Source of the DNA: Candidatus Eisenbacteria bacterium
GTDB taxonomy: Bacteria; Eisenbacteria; RBG-16-71-46
Length of the DNA stretch: 64,000 nucleotides
Assembly (NCBI GenBank): GCA_020847735.1
Contig: JADLBL010000015.1
Span: 62,001 to 126,000, forward strand
Direction: 5' to 3'
The first letter of the stretch is position 1. Each line of letters starts with the position of its first letter. Below the pieces are notes generated by a model. That model was not told the origin of the DNA. It made no database searches and worked only from the letters and a program-made list of their open reading frames with translations. A program made the translations under genes and the position numbers. Below, piece by piece: positions 35,536 to 44,704 of this stretch.

Positions 35536-35571
35536 GTGACCGTCCCCGCCGGGGCCGGCACGGTCCGGGCT

Positions 35572-35600
35572 TTGCCGCCGCGTATGCCGGTTCCTACACT
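35572..35600 (+). promoter_or_regulatory. Promoter immediately before the ECF sigma gene
   Basis: TTGCCG (35572-35577) and TACACT (35595-35600) are spaced by 17 bases. The ATG begins eight bases after the -10, and no ribosome site exists, so the mRNA may be leaderless. Confidence 0.5.
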
Positions 35601-35608
35601 GTCCCGGC

Positions 35609-36196
35609 ATGACCGCCCCGGACCCCGAATCCACCGCCGCCCTCCTGCAGCGCATTCGCGCCGGGGACGAGGCGGCGCGCGAACGGCTGCTGCAGCGCTA
35701 TCTGCCGATCCTGCGCCGGTGGGCGCACGGCCGGTTGCCGGCGAAGGCCCGCGGCTTCGCCGACACCGACGACCTTGTGCAGATCACCTTGATCCGGGTG
35801 TTGAAGCAATTGGAGAGGTTCGATCCCCGGCACGAAGGGGCGTTCCTCGCCTACCTGAGGCGCATCCTGATCAACGCCATGCGCGACGAGATCGCGCGGG
35901 CCGCCACGCGCGGCCGCCAGGAGGAGCCGGGCGAGAGCCTCGTGGACCGGGGCGCCTCGCCGCTCGAGCACGCGCTCGAGCGCGACATGCTCGAGCGCTA
36001 CGACAGGGCGTTCGAAAGGCTGGGCGAAGAGCAACAGGAGGCGGTCTTCATGCGGATCGAAATGGGACTTTCGTACGACGAGATCGCGACCGCGATGGAC
36101 AAGAACTCGGCGAACACGGCGCGGATGATCGTGGCCCGCGGGCTCGCGCGGCTGGCGGAGAACATGGAGGAGCCCGGTGGCGGCGCCCGAAGCTGA
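35609..36196 (+). CDS. ECF-like RNA polymerase sigma factor
   Basis: A 195-residue two-domain sigma factor. Region 2 is around residues 25-100 (FADTDDLVQITLIRVLKQLERFDP) and region 4 around 125-185 (DRAFERLGEEQQEAVFMRIEMGLSYDEIATAMDKNSANTARM, a helix-turn-helix). No anti-sigma gene is adjacent; instead a Ser/Thr kinase gene overlaps its 3' end. The 2.2 region reads A-D-T-D-D, with a Thr at residue 53 inside the acidic patch that normally contacts core polymerase. This recalls ECF43-type factors, which need Thr phosphorylation by a linked kinase. Regulation by phosphorylation is therefore an inference. Confidence 0.88.
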   Translation: MTAPDPESTAALLQRIRAGDEAARERLLQRYLPILRRWAHGRLPAKARGFADTDDLVQITLIRVLKQLERFDPRHEGAFLAYLRRILINAMRDEIARAATRGRQEEPGESLVDRGASPLEHALERDMLERYDRAFERLGEEQQEAVFMRIEMGLSYDEIATAMDKNSANTARMIVARGLARLAENMEEPGGGARS

Positions 36197-37952
36197 CGAC
36201 GAAGGCCTCGTGGCCGTGGCCGGCGCCGTGGCCGACCGAACGCCCGTGCGCTGGGAGGACGAGTGCTCGCGCACACCCGAGCGCGCTCCCGAACTGGCGC
36301 GGCTGAAGGAGCTGGCCGCGCTCGAGGCGGCCATGACGCGCGTGCGCGATGGCGGTCCGCGCGAGGCGCTGTTCACGTGGGGCGCGCTGCAGGCGGTCGA
36401 GCGCCTCGGCGAGGGCTCCTTCGCCGAGGTCTGGCGGGCCTGGGATCCGGTGCTTCAGCGGGAAGTGGCGCTCAAGCTGCGCCGCGACGGCGCCGCCGGG
36501 CCGGCCGGCGGCCGGCGCTGGATCGAGGAGGCCCGGCGCCTGGCGCGCCTGCGTCACCCGCACGTCCTCGCCGTGCTCGGTGCCGACGAGCACGAAGGTC
36601 GCGCGGGCCTGTGGACGGAACTGATCGAGGGCGTGACGCTCGAGGACTGGATCGCGGCGCAGGGCCCGCTCGGCGCGCGCGAGGCGGTGGCGGTCGGGCT
36701 CGACCTGTGCAACGCGCTGGCCGCGGTTCACGCGGCCGGGCTCGTGCACGGCGATGTCAGCCTGCGCAACGTGATGCGCGAAGGCCGGGCCGGCGCGGCC
36801 GACCGCTCCGGCCGCATCGTGCTCATGGACTTCGGCAGCGCCCGCGAAGCGCGGGCCGGCAGCCTGGCGGCGTTCGGCACGCCCGCCTTCACGGCCCCCG
36901 AGGTGCTCGAGGGAGGGCCGGCCGACGTTCGTTCGGACGTCTATTCGCTCGGCGTCGTGCTCTACCGCCTGCTCACGGCCCGCTACCCGGTCGAGCCGGG
37001 CCCGCTCGACGCCATGCGCGCCCGCCTCGCGCGCGGCGAACGTACGGCGCTGCGCGACGCCCGCCCGGACCTGCCCGGTCCGCTCGTCTCGGCGGTCGAG
37101 CGCGCCTGCGATCCCGATCGGGCGTCGCGTTTCGCGAGCGCGGCCGAACTCGAGCAGGCGCTCGCCGGCTCGGTGCCACGCTCGCGCGAGGACGCGCCCG
37201 CCGGCCGGAGGGCGACGCGCCCGCTCGCGCTCGGCGTGACGCTCGCGGCGCTGGCCGTGGTGGCGCTGCTCGCCGGACGCGCGCTGCAGCGGCGGACCGC
37301 TCCGCCTGAGACCAGCGCACCGACCGCGACTTCGGACGTACCCGCGCGCATCGCGGCACCGCCGGCTGCGACGCCCGCGCCTTCCGCGCCGCAGCTCGAG
37401 GCATCGCTGGTGCGCGTCACGGCGGGCGCACACGAGGTGCTGCGCAGCGGCGATCTCGTCGCGCCCGGCGACGAACTGGCGCTCGAGTTGGACGCGCGCG
37501 AGCCGGTGCACGCCTACGTGCTGAGCGAGGACGAAACGGGCGCGGTCTTTGTCCTGTTCCCGCTGGCCGGCCGCGGAGCAGTCAACCCGCTCGCCCCTGG
37601 GCCCCGCAGGCTGCCGGGCAGCGAGGACGGCCACGAACTGTCCTGGCAGGTCACCAGCGCCGGCGGACGCGAGACCTTCCTGCTGCTCGCCTCGCGCACG
37701 CCCCTCGCGCCCGTCGCCGAGGCCACGGCGGGCCTGCCGCAGGCCCGCCCGGAGACGCCGGTCGCCTACCACCCTTTGCCGCCCGAGGCGCTGGCGCGAC
37801 TGCGCGGCGTGGGCGGAGTGGTCGCGGGGCCACCCTTGCGGACCGAGCGCCGAGCCAGCATGCTGGCCGCGCTCGCGCGCGACCTCGAGGACTCGGCCGC
37901 AGGCAGGCCCATCTGGCTGCGCCTCGTCGTGCTCGAGAATCCCGCTCCCTGA
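36177..37952 (+). CDS. Membrane Ser/Thr protein kinase with DUF4384-like sensor domain
   Basis: A 591-residue Hanks-type kinase. The glycine loop LGEGSFAEVW is at 78-87, ATP-Lys at 100 (VALKL), the catalytic loop HGDVSLRN at 191-198, DFG at 218-220 and the APE motif at 240-242. The usual HRD Arg is Gly and the Lys after the catalytic Asp is Ser, while the catalytic Asp and metal Asn are kept. One membrane span (about 349-369) leads to an extracytoplasmic domain of about 200 residues whose ELALELDAREPVHAYVLSEDETGAVFVLFP core resembles DUF4384. GTG 36177 overlaps the sigma gene by 20 bp, with GGAGGAG upstream. Confidence 0.92.
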   Translation: MAAPEADDEGLVAVAGAVADRTPVRWEDECSRTPERAPELARLKELAALEAAMTRVRDGGPREALFTWGALQAVERLGEGSFAEVWRAWDPVLQREVALKLRRDGAAGPAGGRRWIEEARRLARLRHPHVLAVLGADEHEGRAGLWTELIEGVTLEDWIAAQGPLGAREAVAVGLDLCNALAAVHAAGLVHGDVSLRNVMREGRAGAADRSGRIVLMDFGSAREARAGSLAAFGTPAFTAPEVLEGGPADVRSDVYSLGVVLYRLLTARYPVEPGPLDAMRARLARGERTALRDARPDLPGPLVSAVERACDPDRASRFASAAELEQALAGSVPRSREDAPAGRRATRPLALGVTLAALAVVALLAGRALQRRTAPPETSAPTATSDVPARIAAPPAATPAPSAPQLEASLVRVTAGAHEVLRSGDLVAPGDELALELDAREPVHAYVLSEDETGAVFVLFPLAGRGAVNPLAPGPRRLPGSEDGHELSWQVTSAGGRETFLLLASRTPLAPVAEATAGLPQARPETPVAYHPLPPEALARLRGVGGVVAGPPLRTERRASMLAALARDLEDSAAGRPIWLRLVVLENPAP

Positions 37953-37990
37953 GCGCCCGCCGGCGCGGGAGCCTCCGATCGCGAGGGCCC

Positions 37991-40900
37991 ATGCCGACGG
38001 GACGTGCCGCCTGGATCCTGCTGCTGCTCGCCGCCGCGCCGGGCGTCGCCGCGGCGGCCGCGCGCACGCCCGATTCGCTCGCGTTCGTGCGGGAGGGATT
38101 CGCCACGCGCGGCACCGACCCGGCGGTCGTGGCGCTCGCCGAGCGCGTGCTGACCCGTCGTGCGGCCGGGCGCGGGGCGCGGGCAGGCGACGTCGCCGAG
38201 GCCTGGGAATGGCTCGGCCGACTGCGGCTGCTGCGCGTCGAGTACACCGCCGCGGACACCGCGTTCCAGCGCGCGGTCGAACTGCGTCGCGGCGCCCGGC
38301 CCGCGGACGCGCGCGCGAGCGCCGACGCGCTCGGCTGGCTCGCCGAGGCGCAGCGCGTCACCAAGCAGCTCGCCCGCGCCGAAACCACCGCGGTCGCCTC
38401 GCTGGCGGCCTTCGCCCGCCTCTCGCCACCGGACACCGCGAGCGAGATTCGCGTGCGCGGGACCCTGGGCAACGTCCACGCCGAGCGCGGCCGTGGCCCG
38501 CTCGCGGTGGCCGAGCTCGAGCGCGTGGTGGAGCTGGCGTCGGGTCGCCACGCGCCCGACTCGCTGCAACTCGGGCAGGCGCTTCGCAATCTGGGTCGCG
38601 CCCGCTCGGTGGCGGGCGACCTGCGCGGCGCGCTCGCGGATTTCGATCATGCCGCCGAAGTTCAGGAAGCTTCGCGCGGGGCGGCCCGGGCGCAACTCGC
38701 CACGACGCTCATGCTCTCGGCGATGACCGCCTCGTCGCTCGGCGACGGCGTCGCCGCGCGGCGCGCGGCCGAGCGCGCGCTGGCGATTCGCGAACAGGTG
38801 TTCGGTCCGGACCACCCGGCGGTGGCCGTGACGCTGTCCACGCTGGGCGGCGCGCACCGGCTGCTCGGTGACGACGAGGGCGCGATCCCGCTCTACGAGC
38901 GAGCGGTGGACGTCATGCGCGCGGCGCCGAGGCCGAACCCCTTCGACTTCGCGCTGGCGCTCAACAACCTCGGCAACGCCTGCCTGGCGACGGGCGACGG
39001 CGAGCGCGCCCGGCGCTGCCTGCTCGAGGCGCGGCGGGTGCGCGAGCGCGCGTTCGGGCCGGGCTCGGGCAGCGGGACTTACAGCCGCACGCGCCTGGCG
39101 GAAGCGCTGCTGCTGCTGGGCCAGCCCGACTCCGCCGCCGCCGAGCTCGCGCCCGCGCTCGCCGGGCTTCGCGCCAACGCGGGGCCGCAGTCCGATCTCG
39201 ATCTGGGCGACGCGCTGGCGATTGGCGGGCGGATCGACTGGGCGCTCGGCCGTCGCGCCGAGGCGATCGCGGCGTTCGGCGACGCCGCGGCCCGGCGTGC
39301 GGCGGCCGCGGGCGTGGGCTCGCCCTACACGCTCGAGACGCTGGCCCTGCGGGCCGCCGCGCGCCTCGCGACCGGCGACCGCGAGGGCGCGCTGGCCGAC
39401 GCCCGGCGAATCGAGGAGGCGAGCCGCGACCTGCTCTCGCACAGCGCCCGTTCGCTCGCCGAGCACGAGGCTCTGGCGCTCGAGCGCCGGCGCGCGTCGG
39501 GCCTCGACGTCTGGCTGACGCTGGCGACGGATTCCCCGGGCCTCGACGCGCAGGGGCGGCGCGATCTGGCCGACGCGGTCGTGCGCGCGCGGCTGCTCGT
39601 GCTCGACCAGCTCGCCGAGGAGCGCAGGGCGCTGCGGGACGAGCGGCCGGCGCTCGCGCCGGCCGCCCGCGAGCTGAAGAGCGCGCGCGACGCGCTGGCG
39701 AGCGCGCTCGTCGAGGCCCTGCGCCAGGACCGCGCGCCGGACTCGGTGGCGACCCGCGCGCGGCGGCGGCGCGAGGCGGCCGAACTCGCGCTCGCCCGGC
39801 AGAGCGAGGTCTTCGCGGTCAGCCTGAGGCGCGCCGGCGCCGGGCTGGCGGAGGTCGCGGCACAGCTCGGGCCGGGCACGGCGCTGGTTTCATTCGTGCG
39901 GTACGTCCCGCCCGCCACGCTGGGCGAAGCGCGCGACTCCGCTCCCGCGCGCTACGCGGCCCTCGTCACGCACGCCGGCGGCGCGGCGCCCGAGGTGGTG
40001 GCGCTCGGCGATGCGGCCCGGATCGAAGCGGCGGTCGCACGCTGGCTCGAGGCGTGCGCCACGCCGCCACCCGCCGGCGATGCGCTCGCCCGCGCGGCCG
40101 AGCGACGCTGCGACGCCCTCGGCCGCACCGTCTACGACCGGGTGTGGTCGCCGCTCGCGCCCCGGCTGGCGAACGCACGGCGCGTGTTCGTCGTGCCCGA
40201 CGGCGTGCTGCACGCCGTCAACTTCCTCGCCCTGCCCTCGCCGCGTGGAGGCCGCCTCGTCGAGCGCGGAGCGGTGCTGCACCGGCTCACCGCGGAGCGC
40301 GATCTGCTGCCCTGGCCCGGAGAGCCCGCGGGCCGCGGACTGCTGGCGATGGGCGGTGCCGACTTCGATCGCTCCACCGGCACCATCCCGCTGCTCGCCT
40401 CGGCCACCGCGCGCTCCACGGCCGGGACGCCGCACCTTCGGTTCGCGCCGCTCCCGCAGACGGCGGCCGAGGTCGGCGAGGTGGCCGCGCTGTGGCGGGC
40501 CTCCGGGGTTGCCGACGCCGCCGACGTGCGCGTATGGACCGGAGCAGAGGCCACCGAGGCCGAGTTCGAGCGGGCCGCGCCCGGCAGGCGCGTGCTGCAC
40601 CTGGCCACGCACGGCTTCGCGCTCGGCGACACGGCCGCCGCGACGGCCGCACTCGCGGGGGTCCGCGGCGTCGGCGCGGTCACGGCCGGCGGCCCGGGCC
40701 CGGGACTTCTTCGCCGCGCGCCGCTGCTGCCCGGGCTCGCGCTCGCGGGCGCGAACGCGCCCTCGGCGGAGGGCGTCGAGGACGGATTCCTGACCGCGGA
40801 GGAGATCACCTCGCTCGACCTCTCCGGGGTCGAATGGGCCGTGCTCTCGGCGTGCGAAACCGGCCGCCCGGACCCGGCGGCGGCCGAGGCCGTGCAGGGA

Positions 40901-41143
40901 CTTCAGCGGGCCTTCCGCAGAGCCGGGGTTCGCACGGTGATCATGAGCCTGTGGGCGGTGGACGACGCGACCACGCGCGAATGGATGCGCGGACTGTACG
41001 AAGCGCGCCTGCTGCGCGGGCTCGACACGGCGGAAGCGACCACGGAGGCCTGCCGCGGGTGGCTGCGGGCGCGCCGGGCGCGGCGGCTGGACACGCACCC
41101 GTTCCGTTGGGCGGCGTTCGTCGCCGCCGGCGACTGGCGCTGA
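37991..41143 (+). CDS. Exported TPR-CHAT domain (caspase-like) protein
   Basis: A 1050-residue protein. An N-terminal signal peptide (about 1-25) is followed by roughly ten TPR-like helical repeats (about 60-520; AIREQVFGPDHPAVAVTLSTLGGAH, LALNNLGNACLATGDGERARR), a helical spacer, and a C-terminal CHAT domain of the caspase-like clan. The His of the dyad lies in LHLATHGFALGD (near 872) and the Cys in LSACETGRPDP (near 954), so it looks active. TPR-CHAT proteins are known elsewhere as nucleic-acid-system proteases (Csx29) and signalling partners; here it is predicted to be periplasmic or extracellular. It lies 38 bp after the kinase, in one operon. Confidence 0.9.
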   Translation: MPTGRAAWILLLLAAAPGVAAAAARTPDSLAFVREGFATRGTDPAVVALAERVLTRRAAGRGARAGDVAEAWEWLGRLRLLRVEYTAADTAFQRAVELRRGARPADARASADALGWLAEAQRVTKQLARAETTAVASLAAFARLSPPDTASEIRVRGTLGNVHAERGRGPLAVAELERVVELASGRHAPDSLQLGQALRNLGRARSVAGDLRGALADFDHAAEVQEASRGAARAQLATTLMLSAMTASSLGDGVAARRAAERALAIREQVFGPDHPAVAVTLSTLGGAHRLLGDDEGAIPLYERAVDVMRAAPRPNPFDFALALNNLGNACLATGDGERARRCLLEARRVRERAFGPGSGSGTYSRTRLAEALLLLGQPDSAAAELAPALAGLRANAGPQSDLDLGDALAIGGRIDWALGRRAEAIAAFGDAAARRAAAAGVGSPYTLETLALRAAARLATGDREGALADARRIEEASRDLLSHSARSLAEHEALALERRRASGLDVWLTLATDSPGLDAQGRRDLADAVVRARLLVLDQLAEERRALRDERPALAPAARELKSARDALASALVEALRQDRAPDSVATRARRRREAAELALARQSEVFAVSLRRAGAGLAEVAAQLGPGTALVSFVRYVPPATLGEARDSAPARYAALVTHAGGAAPEVVALGDAARIEAAVARWLEACATPPPAGDALARAAERRCDALGRTVYDRVWSPLAPRLANARRVFVVPDGVLHAVNFLALPSPRGGRLVERGAVLHRLTAERDLLPWPGEPAGRGLLAMGGADFDRSTGTIPLLASATARSTAGTPHLRFAPLPQTAAEVGEVAALWRASGVADAADVRVWTGAEATEAEFERAAPGRRVLHLATHGFALGDTAAATAALAGVRGVGAVTAGGPGPGLLRRAPLLPGLALAGANAPSAEGVEDGFLTAEEITSLDLSGVEWAVLSACETGRPDPAAAEAVQGLQRAFRRAGVRTVIMSLWAVDDATTREWMRGLYEARLLRGLDTAEATTEACRGWLRARRARRLDTHPFRWAAFVAAGDWR

Positions 41144-41263
41144 CATCCCGGCGCCGCGCGCGGAAGCGCGGCGTGGTGCGCGTGTGCGGTCGCGCCGGAC
41201 CGGCCGGTTGAGGGGATATCGGCCGAGCGGCCGATGACCCCGACCCGTCCCGGAGGCGAACCC

Positions 41264-41815
41264 ATGCGAAATCTTCCGCTGCGTTGCGCCCTGCTGTGCG
41301 TGGCGCTGGCCCCCGCCCTCGCCTTCGCGCAATCGGGCGGCACCTACAACCTCGACTGGCACTCGCTGACCGGCGGAGGTCTGACCTTCGCCGGCGGCGG
41401 CGGTTACACGCTCGGCGGCGCCGCCGGCCAGCACGACGCCGGCCCGCAGTCGGGTGGCGCGTACGCGCTCGCGGGCGGTTTCTGGGTGGGCGGCCCGGCG
41501 GGCAACGTGGGAGTGCCCGCCGGCGAAGCGCTGCCTCAGGTGTTCGCCGCCGGCCTCGCCGGCCCCAATCCCTCCTCCGGCGCCAGTGTCCTGCGCCTCG
41601 ATCTGCCCGAGGCGCGCCGCGTGCGCGTCGTGCTCCACGGCATTGATGGGCGGGCCGTGCGCGTGCTGCTCGACGGCGAGCGCGGTGCGGGTCGTCACAC
41701 CGTGCGCTGGGACGGAGCAGGCGAAGACGGCCGGCGCGCCGCTCCCGGCATCTATTTCGCGCGAATCGAGGCCGGAGCCTCGCGCGCTTCGGTACGACTC
41801 GTCCGCCTCCAGTAA
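41264..41815 (+). CDS. Small secreted protein with FlgD-like C-terminal domain
   Basis: A 183-residue exported protein: signal peptide, a short Gly-rich middle (GGGLTFAGGGGYTLGGAAGQ...YALAGGFWVG) and a C-terminal beta domain with the pattern LAGPNPSSGASVLRLDLPEARRV...DGRAVRVLLDGERGAGRHTVRWDG...APGIYFARIEAG, the FlgD-Ig/type 9 sorting-like fold. In Bacteroidetes such domains direct export through T9SS; here a comparable surface-attachment or sorting role is inferred. ATG 41264 follows a GGAGGCG site. Function of the mature part unknown. Confidence 0.82.
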   Translation: MRNLPLRCALLCVALAPALAFAQSGGTYNLDWHSLTGGGLTFAGGGGYTLGGAAGQHDAGPQSGGAYALAGGFWVGGPAGNVGVPAGEALPQVFAAGLAGPNPSSGASVLRLDLPEARRVRVVLHGIDGRAVRVLLDGERGAGRHTVRWDGAGEDGRRAAPGIYFARIEAGASRASVRLVRLQ

Positions 41816-41846
41816 CGACTTCCCTCTCCATTCCCCGGAGCCCGAC

Positions 41847-43319
41847 ATGACCCGCTTCCGCAACCGGCCGCACCTGCTCGCCTTCCTCGCCTTCACACTG
41901 CTCGCCGCGGGGATCACGTCACCCGCGCACGCCGCCCCGGTGACCACCGTGTTCACCTACCAGGGCCGGCTTCAGATGAACTCCACCGCGTACACCGGCA
42001 CGGCCGACCTCGTGTTCCGCCTCCACGACGACTTCGCCGCCGGGAACCAGGTGGGAGGCGACGTCGGCGTCAGCGGCGTCACCGTCACGGACGGCTACTT
42101 CACGGTCGAGCTGGATTTCGGTCCCGTCTACGACGGCACAGCGTTGTGGCTCGAGACCGAGGTGATGACGCCGGGAGACGGCGGCTTCACCCTGCTCGCC
42201 CCGCGGCAGTCCCTCACCGCGGCTCCGTTCGCGCTCTACGCGCTCGGCGCGCCCGGCGGCGGCGGTGGCAGCCAGTGGTCCGACGTCGCGAACGGCATCG
42301 AATACTCGGCCGGCAACGTGGGAATCGGCGTCGCCCCCGGCGTGGACCGCAAGCTGTGGATCGCGACCGGCACGTCCGACATGAACACGCTCTTCCTGAC
42401 CAGCAACAACACGAACTATGCGACCCTGGCCGTTCGCAACGACGCGGCGAACGGCTACGGCGTCTACGACGCCTGGAGCGACCGGCATTACATTGCCGGC
42501 CGCCTCGGGCTCGGCACGCTGAGCCCGGGCTACCCCCTCGACGTCTACGCCAGCCTCAAGCCAGGAGCGCGCATCGTGTCCACGGGCTCGACGCTCACGC
42601 CCGGCACGCACGCGGCGCTGTACGTGAGCGGACTCACCGGCGGCGGGCTGTTCGGCGGTGTCTCGGACGGCATCTACTCCGCCAGCACCGACGGCCGCGG
42701 CATCTCCGGCTGGAGTCAGTACCTCTACGGCGTGACCGGGGACTGCACCTCATCGGGTACCTACGGATTCCTGGGCACGCCCAACGAGGGTGTGTACGGC
42801 TACTCGCCGTCCGTCTCGAAACCAGCGGGGCGTTTCAACTGCGCGGTGGGCGGCGTGGCGATCGAGGCCAACGGCCTCGCGAAGGTGAAGACGCTGCAGA
42901 TTCTGGGCGGCGCCGACCTCGCCGAGCGCTTCGAGGTGGACGGCGCGCCCGAGCCGGGCACGGTGCTGGCCATTGACCCCGCGCGGCCCGGCCGGCTCGA
43001 GCCCGCCGCCGAGGCCTACTCGCACCGCGTCGCCGGCGTCGTCAGCGGCGCGAACGCGCTCGATGCCGGCATCGTCCTGAGCAAGGACGGCCACACCGAG
43101 GGCACCGCGGCCGTCGCGCTGACCGGCCGGGTGTGGGTGAAAGGCGACGCCACCGCCGCGCCGATCACGGCCGGCGACCTTCTCACCACGTCCTCGCTGG
43201 CGGGCCACGCGATGAAGGCCGCCGACCGCGAGCGCGCGCACGGCGCGGTGCTTGGCAAGGCGATGACCGCGCTCGGTTCGGGCACCGGCATGGTGCTCGT
43301 GCTGGTGAGCCTCCAGTGA
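41847..43319 (+). CDS. Secreted surface protein, tail-fibre-like repeats with possible autoproteolytic end
   Basis: A 490-residue exported protein. After the signal peptide, an N-terminal domain starts with FTYQGRLQMNSTAYTGTADLVFRLHD, a pattern common in surface proteins of the wider FCB/PVC groups. A middle section reads like tail-fibre or collagen-like shafts (DRHYIAGRLGLGTLSPGYPLDVYASL, GIYSASTDGRGISGWSQYLYGVTG). The C-terminus (GADLAERFEVDGAPEPGTVL...HRVAGVVSG) resembles the Peptidase_G2/IMC-type auto-cleaving domain of phage fibres, a low-confidence call. The next gene starts inside its stop codon (GTGA). Confidence 0.78.
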   Translation: MTRFRNRPHLLAFLAFTLLAAGITSPAHAAPVTTVFTYQGRLQMNSTAYTGTADLVFRLHDDFAAGNQVGGDVGVSGVTVTDGYFTVELDFGPVYDGTALWLETEVMTPGDGGFTLLAPRQSLTAAPFALYALGAPGGGGGSQWSDVANGIEYSAGNVGIGVAPGVDRKLWIATGTSDMNTLFLTSNNTNYATLAVRNDAANGYGVYDAWSDRHYIAGRLGLGTLSPGYPLDVYASLKPGARIVSTGSTLTPGTHAALYVSGLTGGGLFGGVSDGIYSASTDGRGISGWSQYLYGVTGDCTSSGTYGFLGTPNEGVYGYSPSVSKPAGRFNCAVGGVAIEANGLAKVKTLQILGGADLAERFEVDGAPEPGTVLAIDPARPGRLEPAAEAYSHRVAGVVSGANALDAGIVLSKDGHTEGTAAVALTGRVWVKGDATAAPITAGDLLTTSSLAGHAMKAADRERAHGAVLGKAMTALGSGTGMVLVLVSLQ

Positions 43320-44704
43320 GCGCGCGCTTCGAACCTTCCGCCGCGCGGGCGGTGGCGCTGGCCCTGGCGCTCGTCACCACGGTCGCGCTGTCTCGGGCGG
43401 AGGCCGCACCGCGCGGTCCGGGCTGGCGGACGACACCCGTCGCGCGTTCGTCCGCGGTCCTGGCCGGCGAGCCGGGAAAGCCCGTGCGCGAGGTGGATCT
43501 CGGCACGGTCGAGATGCCCGGGGCGCCGTGGCTGCGGCTCGTCTTCGGACCCTGCGCGCTCGGCGATTCGAGCCGCATCCTGCTGCGCTCGGGCTGGAAC
43601 GACGACTGGCAGACGCTCGACGCGCGCGCGCTCGCGGACTGGGGAAACACATCGGCGGTCTTCAACGGCGACCGCATCGAGGTGAAGCTGCTCGTGGCGC
43701 CCGGCGACCGGGACGTGCAGGCCAGCGTGCGCGGCGCGGTCGTGGGTATCGGCGAGCCGCTGCGGCCGCAGACGCAGTGCGGGGCGAACGACGACCGCGT
43801 CGCCTCGGGCGACAATCGCGTCGCGCGCGTCTTCAACAGCGGCTGCACCGCGTGGCGCGTCGGCAACGGCGCGTTCCTCACGGCCGGGCATTGCGCCGAC
43901 TTCGACCCGGACGCGGCCGGGCCGATGCTGCCCGACGGCTTGCTCGATCTGAGCGGAGTCGTCGAGTTCAACGTCCCGTGGTCCGGTCACGACGGCACGC
44001 TGGTGGCGGCCGCCCCGCAGGACCAGTACCCCATCAACCTCGCGAACGTTCAGTGGCGCTTCGACGGCGACGGCCAGGGTCTCGGCAAGGACTGGTGCGT
44101 GTTCGGCGTGAACCGCAACGCCAATACCGGATTGCTCCCGCACCAGGCCTACGGGCTGCCGTTCCGGATCACTCGCGAGCTGCCCGCCAACGGTTCGACG
44201 ATTCGCGTCACCGGCTTCGGCACCGACGCCGACTCCACGAACCAGACCAATCAGACCGCGGCCGGCCCGTTCAGCGGCGAGTCCGCGTCCGGTGCCGACA
44301 TCCGCCTCGACTACGCGGTGGACACCGAGGGCGGCAACTCCGGCAGCCCGGCGATCTGGGAGGGCTGGAACATCGCGATCGGGGTGCACACGAACGGCGG
44401 CTGCACGACGTCCGGCGGCGGCAATGTCGCGACGTCGTTCGAGGTGGACGCGCTCGAGAACGCGATCAACGCCTTCCCCGGTGCCGGCTCGACGCACGTG
44501 GACGCGGGTCATCCGTTTCCGGTCGTCGAGAGCGGCTCGCTGATGCGGCCGTGGAACACGTTCATGGAGGGCGTCGGCGCCGTCGTCACCGGCGCGACCG
44601 TCTCGGTGTTCACGGGCAACTACAGCGTTCCCGCGGGCTCCAGCATCGTTCGCGCGATGACCATCTCCGCGAGTGTCGGCCCGGTGACGGTGACCGCACC
44701 CTGA
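43316..44704 (+). CDS. Secreted trypsin-like serine protease
   Basis: A 462-residue chymotrypsin-fold protease with a signal peptide of about 31 residues and a ~130-residue propeptide-like N-region. The triad is visible: His in FLTAGHCAD (about 192), Asp in GKDWCVFGV (about 259) and Ser in TEGGNSGSPAI (about 342). A C-terminal beta-rich extension follows. Its GTG start overlaps the preceding stop. The gene closes a run of secreted proteins after the sigma-kinase-CHAT genes, raising the possibility that it matures or trims the neighbouring surface proteins (inference). Confidence 0.9.
   Translation: MSARFEPSAARAVALALALVTTVALSRAEAAPRGPGWRTTPVARSSAVLAGEPGKPVREVDLGTVEMPGAPWLRLVFGPCALGDSSRILLRSGWNDDWQTLDARALADWGNTSAVFNGDRIEVKLLVAPGDRDVQASVRGAVVGIGEPLRPQTQCGANDDRVASGDNRVARVFNSGCTAWRVGNGAFLTAGHCADFDPDAAGPMLPDGLLDLSGVVEFNVPWSGHDGTLVAAAPQDQYPINLANVQWRFDGDGQGLGKDWCVFGVNRNANTGLLPHQAYGLPFRITRELPANGSTIRVTGFGTDADSTNQTNQTAAGPFSGESASGADIRLDYAVDTEGGNSGSPAIWEGWNIAIGVHTNGGCTTSGGGNVATSFEVDALENAINAFPGAGSTHVDAGHPFPVVESGSLMRPWNTFMEGVGAVVTGATVSVFTGNYSVPAGSSIVRAMTISASVGPVTVTAP

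Follow-up and report, generated by a model that had tools for sequence, protein, structure and literature searches.

Most of what is known of CHAT proteins concerns proteases of the cytoplasm that act in cell death or defence. In Myxococcus xanthus, DdvA is the anti-sigma factor of the extracytoplasmic function (ECF) sigma factor DdvS (PMC4374960), and in type III-E CRISPR the TPR-CHAT protease Csx29 regulates the ECF-like CASP-sigma by cutting the inhibitor Csx30 (PMC10028731). ECF groups associated with kinases have a DAED-like motif, some with Ser or Thr in or near it (PMC8999054). In ECF43 factors, phosphorylation falls on a Thr in third place of this motif, which lacks all or most of its acidic residues (STTA, QATE; PMC8999054, PMC13147305). 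Here we describe a locus of Candidatus Eisenbacteria in which an ECF-type sigma factor, a membrane Ser/Thr kinase, and a predicted exported TPR-CHAT protein are encoded side by side. The window, meaning the whole stretch of DNA analysed, is 64,000 nucleotides (nt) long, and the three genes occupy positions 35609–41143 of it, all on the + strand.

The three genes are a recurring module whose parts travel together across several phyla. A full envelope-signalling module of kinase, sigma factor, and CHAT protein is the best explanation we can offer, held with a little less than even confidence, and the shared distribution of the parts suggests that gene expression in the cytoplasm is controlled in part by a protease-like protein beyond it. 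The module is more general than was held by an earlier annotation of this stretch (the sequence-only reading), and the phosphorylation analogy drawn there fails in two defining points.

Synteny of the three genes

The genes are real, adjacent, and coupled. Pfam matches and coordinates agree on this, as had been claimed: the kinase gene, with a GTG start, overlaps the sigma gene by 20 nt across the sigma stop, and a gap of 38 nt separates the kinase end (37952) from the TPR-CHAT start (37991). No anti-sigma gene occurs between the three, which bears out the claim of a sigma factor without one. The features of the module are as follows, with protein lengths in amino acids (aa):

35609–36196, + strand: ECF-type sigma factor P0001, 195 aa (Pfam match; family of 122 relatives)
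35762–35773, + strand: region 2.2 motif D52-T53-D54-D55, with T53 at 35765–35767 (alignment of 122 relatives)
36177–37952, + strand: membrane Ser/Thr kinase with DUF4384 tail, P0002, 591 aa (Pfam, model)
36192–36350, + strand: N-terminal helical domain of the kinase, residues 6–58 (AlphaFold2 helices; hidden Markov model (HMM) match in 93/104 adjacent kinases)
36393–37202, + strand: kinase catalytic domain with VALK, HGD, and DFG (Pfam, alignment, fold search)
37227–37289, + strand: predicted single transmembrane helix, kinase residues 351–371 (hydrophobicity/model)
37461–37703, + strand: DUF4384, beta-rich, predicted outside the membrane (Pfam, model)
37991–41143, + strand: predicted exported TPR-CHAT protein P0003, 1050 aa (Pfam, model, fold match)
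37991–38062, + strand: Sec-type signal peptide of the TPR-CHAT protein (by eye)
40115–41134, + strand: CHAT domain, with H874 at 40610–40612 and C955 at 40853–40855 (Pfam, alignment)

A search of 99 related genomes recovered about 60 further members of the sigma family (E < 1e-30), all from the same class, and a second scan of named genomes added members from further phyla. The family occurs in Eisenbacteria, Krumholzibacteriota, Acidobacteriota (Thermoanaerobaculia), Latescibacterota, Gemmatimonadota, and Gammaproteobacteria, where phylum names follow database records, mostly of metagenome bins. The nearest named relatives are Candidatus Eisenbacteria, and cultured carriers of the sigma-kinase pair were identified in Marinicella, Wenzhouxiangella, and Pseudofulvimonas. 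For a non-redundant set of 122 sigma relatives, the genes nearby were identified with profiles derived from the proteins of the window. A Ser/Thr kinase gene is directly downstream on the same strand in 104 of these, and several of the 18 sigma genes with no adjacent kinase lie at contig ends.

Behind the same kinase domain the outer parts vary (DUF4384, TPR, FG-GAP, PD40, or AAA-TPR), and the CHAT gene is associated with one of them. A TPR-CHAT gene was found near 27 of 36 complete DUF4384-kinase loci vs none of 42 loci with other tails (Fisher p 1.4e-13, uncorrected for kinship, which overstates the case because the rows are related). Some of the labels behind these counts are manual assignments. 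DUF4384 was assigned to L156, whose kinase is split, and to L138, whose kinase is cut; L060 was credited with an upstream CHAT on the evidence of its longer copy, L130; and two loci, L044 and L074, were scored as having CHAT from long matches to the N-terminal part of the CHAT protein that end at a contig end. Kinases of the same sigma family with no CHAT nearby often carry TPRs in their own chain, and no single-chain kinase-CHAT fusion was seen. A second sigma-kinase pair of this family in the same genome (L056, C20) has an FG-GAP kinase, with no CHAT found beside it.

The position of the CHAT gene differs among 24 triads: 13 have it downstream on the same strand, five upstream on the same strand, five convergent downstream, and one upstream on the opposite strand. 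Linkage has therefore been kept through rearrangement, and on the CHAT tree the triad members are spread over three or more separate parts. Co-occurrence in relatives had been proposed as a check, and the three families do occur together across phyla in several gene orders. CHATs, kinases, and ECF sigma factors are each numerous in these genomes, so three abundant families could in principle stand side by side in a high-GC genome by accident. Recurrence across phyla places the arrangement far beyond chance; with the different gene orders and the association of CHAT with DUF4384 (before relatedness is corrected for), we give accidental adjacency a negligible probability, and synteny refutes it.

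Thr53 and control of the sigma factor by the kinase

The sigma factor matches Sigma70_r2 (1e-14) and Sigma70_r4_2 (2e-7), and scores 94.3 bits against TIGR02984 (Planctomycetaceae ECF subfamily 1), below the curated cut-off of 183.75. Its region 2.2 motif is DTDD. T53 is invariant in the alignment of all 122 relatives, position 52 is acidic in 119 and position 55 in all 122, and position 54 varies (D in 58). Among sigma factors of the same genome that could be aligned, T occurs at position 53 only in the two kinase-linked family members. These patterns make T53 a good candidate phosphosite. A second candidate is T9 in the ESTxxLL start of the protein, which is T in 118 of 122 relatives.

The sequence-only reading had placed Thr53 in an acidic region 2.2 patch and likened it to the site of EcfP. 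The location in region 2.2 holds, but equivalence with the EcfP site does not. Under an EcfP/ECF43-type switch, the sigma factor would lack the acidic patch and phosphorylation of T53 would restore the charge for RNA polymerase binding. The gene arrangement fits such a switch, with a Hanks-type kinase adjacent in 104 of 122 loci, no anti-sigma, and a Thr within the region 2.2 motif. The motif itself does not: Thr is at the second position of the DAED motif, one before the EcfP/EcfK phosphosite, and D52, D54, and D55 are present, with positions 52 and 55 kept acidic in the family, whereas ECF43 has STTA or QATE (PMC8999054, PMC13147305). A charge switch of the EcfP type at T53 is thus unlikely from the alignment, and we consider the ECF43 mechanism as a whole very improbable here. 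Conservation of Thr53 alongside the kinase, the other proposed check, gave a divided answer: the residue is present in 122/122 relatives but persists in the 18 sigma factors with no adjacent kinase, and for this reason its conservation does not single out the kinase.

A kinase with a membrane span and an outer DUF4384-like domain had been claimed, and the protein agrees in each part. It matches Pkinase (3e-31) and DUF4384 (4e-8, above the curated cut-off), and the motifs VALK, HGD, and DFG are intact. The catalytic Lys, HxD, and DFG, one transmembrane helix, and a predicted outer domain are those of a Hanks-type transmembrane kinase. The structural model (pLDDT 82) has a hydrophobic helix at residues ~351–371 ahead of a beta-rich DUF4384 region at residues ~407–506. 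Kinase domains were among the matches listed in a fold search with this model, and none of those matches fell on DUF4384. The N-terminal helical domain (residues 6–58) is matched by an HMM in 93 of 104 sigma-adjacent kinases whose tails are quite different, and is a candidate sigma-docking domain. The domain bears a conserved W.

This shared domain also admits a different role for the kinase, as an anti-sigma-like holder that tethers the sigma factor at the membrane and frees it on activation, with sigma phosphorylation beside the point. With its acidic motif for RNA polymerase binding intact, the sigma factor may be active by default, and sister loci of the same genome hold a short anti-sigma-like membrane protein at the place of the kinase. 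An anti-sigma role of the N-terminal domain finds no support in sequence similarity to known anti-sigma domains, and the catalytic residues are intact in nearly all aligned relatives, which indicates that catalysis matters. We regard the holder role as rather doubtful.

The exported TPR-CHAT protein

Pfam matches for the third protein include CHAT (3e-54) and several TPR families. Its membership in CHAT (PF12770) is clear at 185 bits vs a cut-off of 24, with the His/Cys dyad at H874 and C955, and its structural model is good (pLDDT 85, pTM 0.82). A Sec-type signal peptide was recognized by eye (MPTGRAAWILLLLAAAPGVAAAAA), and a signal-peptide-like N-terminal segment is present in 14 of 14 triad CHATs inspected (by eye and hydrophobicity). 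H874 is kept in 23/23 aligned triad CHATs and C955, the only conserved Cys, in the 22/22 that reach its position; the His and Cys of the dyad are also invariant in a set of 41 CHATs. The earlier claim of an exported TPR-CHAT protein with an intact-looking dyad therefore stands, with export predicted, and the check it had proposed on the location of the protein came out the same way in the inspected triads.

The top fold match of the TPR-CHAT model is DdvA, ahead of separase and Csx29. A CHAT-only profile built from the triads alone found no PDB relative, while a broader CHAT profile found DdvA (PDB 8rot, 8rw5) as its best PDB match (1.7e-14). The TPR-CHAT part of DdvA is presumably outside the membrane, judging by a hydrophobic stretch ahead of it in the alignment.

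Exported CHATs beside ECF genes are common in this class. The genome of the window (3.66 Mb) has six CHAT genes, and five of these adjoin an ECF gene. The four ECF-adjacent CHATs other than that of the window each have an adjoining short, single-pass, anti-sigma-like membrane protein, only one of which has a Pfam zinc-finger match. These loci (L008, L009, L010, L011) encode exported TPR-CHATs beside other ECF factors. An ECF gene lies no more than 3.5 kb away in 28 of another 40 CHAT loci examined in the class; about two would be expected by chance (an estimate, taking ~20 sigma genes per genome). Of 39 complete CHATs sampled there, 28 score as exported in a crude hydrophobicity test, and two more look exported by eye. 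An exported CHAT had been called unusual because CHATs are usually cytoplasmic; that view fails here because most CHATs sampled in the class look exported and because DdvA is itself a transmembrane TPR-CHAT anti-sigma factor. Across the loci L205–L244, CHATs with a signal peptide tend toward a membrane-spanning regulator and those without one toward a soluble regulator. This match of compartments is a lead and not proof, since the CHAT tree requires just two switches between having and lacking a signal peptide.

TPR-CHAT is fused to the regulator in DdvA, lies beside anti-sigma-like proteins in the sister loci, and lies beside a kinase here. The simplest reading is that the exported TPR-CHAT protein serves as outer partner to a membrane regulator, in this case a kinase. 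A mechanism for the module can be drawn from these parts. Outside the inner membrane, the TPR superhelix would bind a cue, and the protein would set kinase activity through DUF4384, either by binding this domain or by cutting it as a caspase would. The membrane kinase would control the sigma factor directly, docking through its conserved N-terminal helical domain and phosphorylating it, most likely at the invariant T53 on the RNA-polymerase-binding face of region 2.2. The switched sigma factor would then drive transcription, probably of the neighbouring secreted proteins. In its most specific form, an extracytoplasmic TPR-CHAT protease would cut or gate DUF4384, and the kinase would switch an ECF sigma factor, its acidic patch intact, by phosphorylating the invariant Thr. 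The result would be a transmembrane relay from caspase-like protease to kinase to sigma factor, and it would belong to a broader class whose TPR-CHATs are placed on the same side of the membrane as the ECF regulator. We regard this specific form as possible, if doubtful.

Several points weigh against the outer-partner mechanism. Nine of 36 DUF4384 kinases have no CHAT nearby, and the tail and CHAT labels derive from profiles built on the same data set. Mapping the labels onto the sigma tree takes 13 changes for DUF4384 and 15 for CHAT; well supported branches give four independent contrasts of DUF4384 against CHAT, of which about three agree and none disagrees, with the rest uninformative, and this is not significant. 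The T53 conservation that the 18 sigma factors with no adjacent kinase share (several at contig ends) may be structural, as far as the alignment goes. An oxidising compartment is not where a thiol protease is usually found. The CHAT protein could also be an output of the sigma factor instead of its regulator.

As such an output, CHAT would be an effector whose production the sigma factor and kinase control, and it would take no part in sensing. Its gene comes third here, as it does in most same-strand triads, and secreted proteins then follow. In 11 of 24 triads, though, it lies upstream or on the opposite strand. It was found only beside DUF4384 kinases and not beside those of this sigma family that have TPR, FG-GAP, or PD40 tails, and in DdvA TPR-CHAT belongs to the regulator itself. 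We consider an effector role unlikely. A non-cutting CHAT, serving as a ligand-binding partner of DUF4384 with its dyad unused, would suit the lack of a known substrate and the rarity of exported thiol proteases. The invariance of both dyad residues, in the triads and in the wider set, argues for a used dyad, and a purely binding role seems fairly improbable.

Neighbouring genes and comparison with known systems

Three further features follow the module:

41183–41210, + strand: intergenic element TGTGCGRT-N13-CCGGTTG, a possible promoter for the gene downstream (retained in two orthologous loci)
41264–41815, + strand: secreted protein with a FlgD_ig / T9SS-like tail, 183 aa, a recurrent neighbour of the sigma family (Pfam, neighbourhoods)
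41847–43319, + strand: secreted protein, 490 aa, no Pfam family (homologues near ~10 non-redundant sigma loci)

The element between the CHAT gene and the next gene is kept in L042 and L043, has its only exact match in the genome at this site, and is a possible target promoter; a scan for consensus promoters and terminators found none. Homologues of the 490-aa protein lie near sigma loci of the family with different kinase tails, and the secreted proteins at 41264–43319 are candidate sigma targets. A pair related to them lies at L010:13672–15323, and an apparently secreted trypsin-like protein (43352–44704) comes directly after them. Just before the sigma ATG (35570–35610), GTTCCTACACT is also present in L042, is absent in L043, and resembles the -10 element of a leaderless promoter.

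Should exported TPR-CHATs prove to be partners dedicated to ECF regulators, a function would be gained for many genes that now lack an explanation, Craspase and DdvA would come into one frame, and there would be a testable route for Ser/Thr kinases reading outside signals. The cultured carriers make the sigma-kinase half directly testable.

The locus shares parts with each of the described systems. Like ECF43 (EcfP-PknT of Vibrio parahaemolyticus, EcfK-PknS of Xanthomonas citri), it has an ECF gene next to a transmembrane Ser/Thr kinase and no anti-sigma (PMC13147305, PMC8999054). Unlike ECF43, the acidic region 2.2 residues are kept and the Thr is at another position, and these accounts of ECF43 describe no CHAT. 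Conserved kinase genes are also found beside ECF59, 61, 62, 217, and 283, and conserved CHAT genes beside ECF54 (PMC8999054); these groups are likened by description, and kinase and CHAT together were not found described for one group in the texts consulted. Craspase likewise has a TPR-CHAT protease acting on control of an ECF-like sigma factor, and Csx29 is a fold and profile relative. Craspase is cytoplasmic and RNA-activated, with no kinase and no membrane, whereas the CHAT of the window is predicted to be exported, with no Cas7-11 or Csx30 among the neighbouring proteins examined. In DdvS-DdvA, as here, an ECF sigma factor is paired with a membrane regulator linked to TPR-CHAT. DdvA combines an anti-sigma domain, a transmembrane segment, and TPR-CHAT in one chain, whereas here a Ser/Thr kinase with DUF4384 and an exported TPR-CHAT protein are encoded by separate genes.

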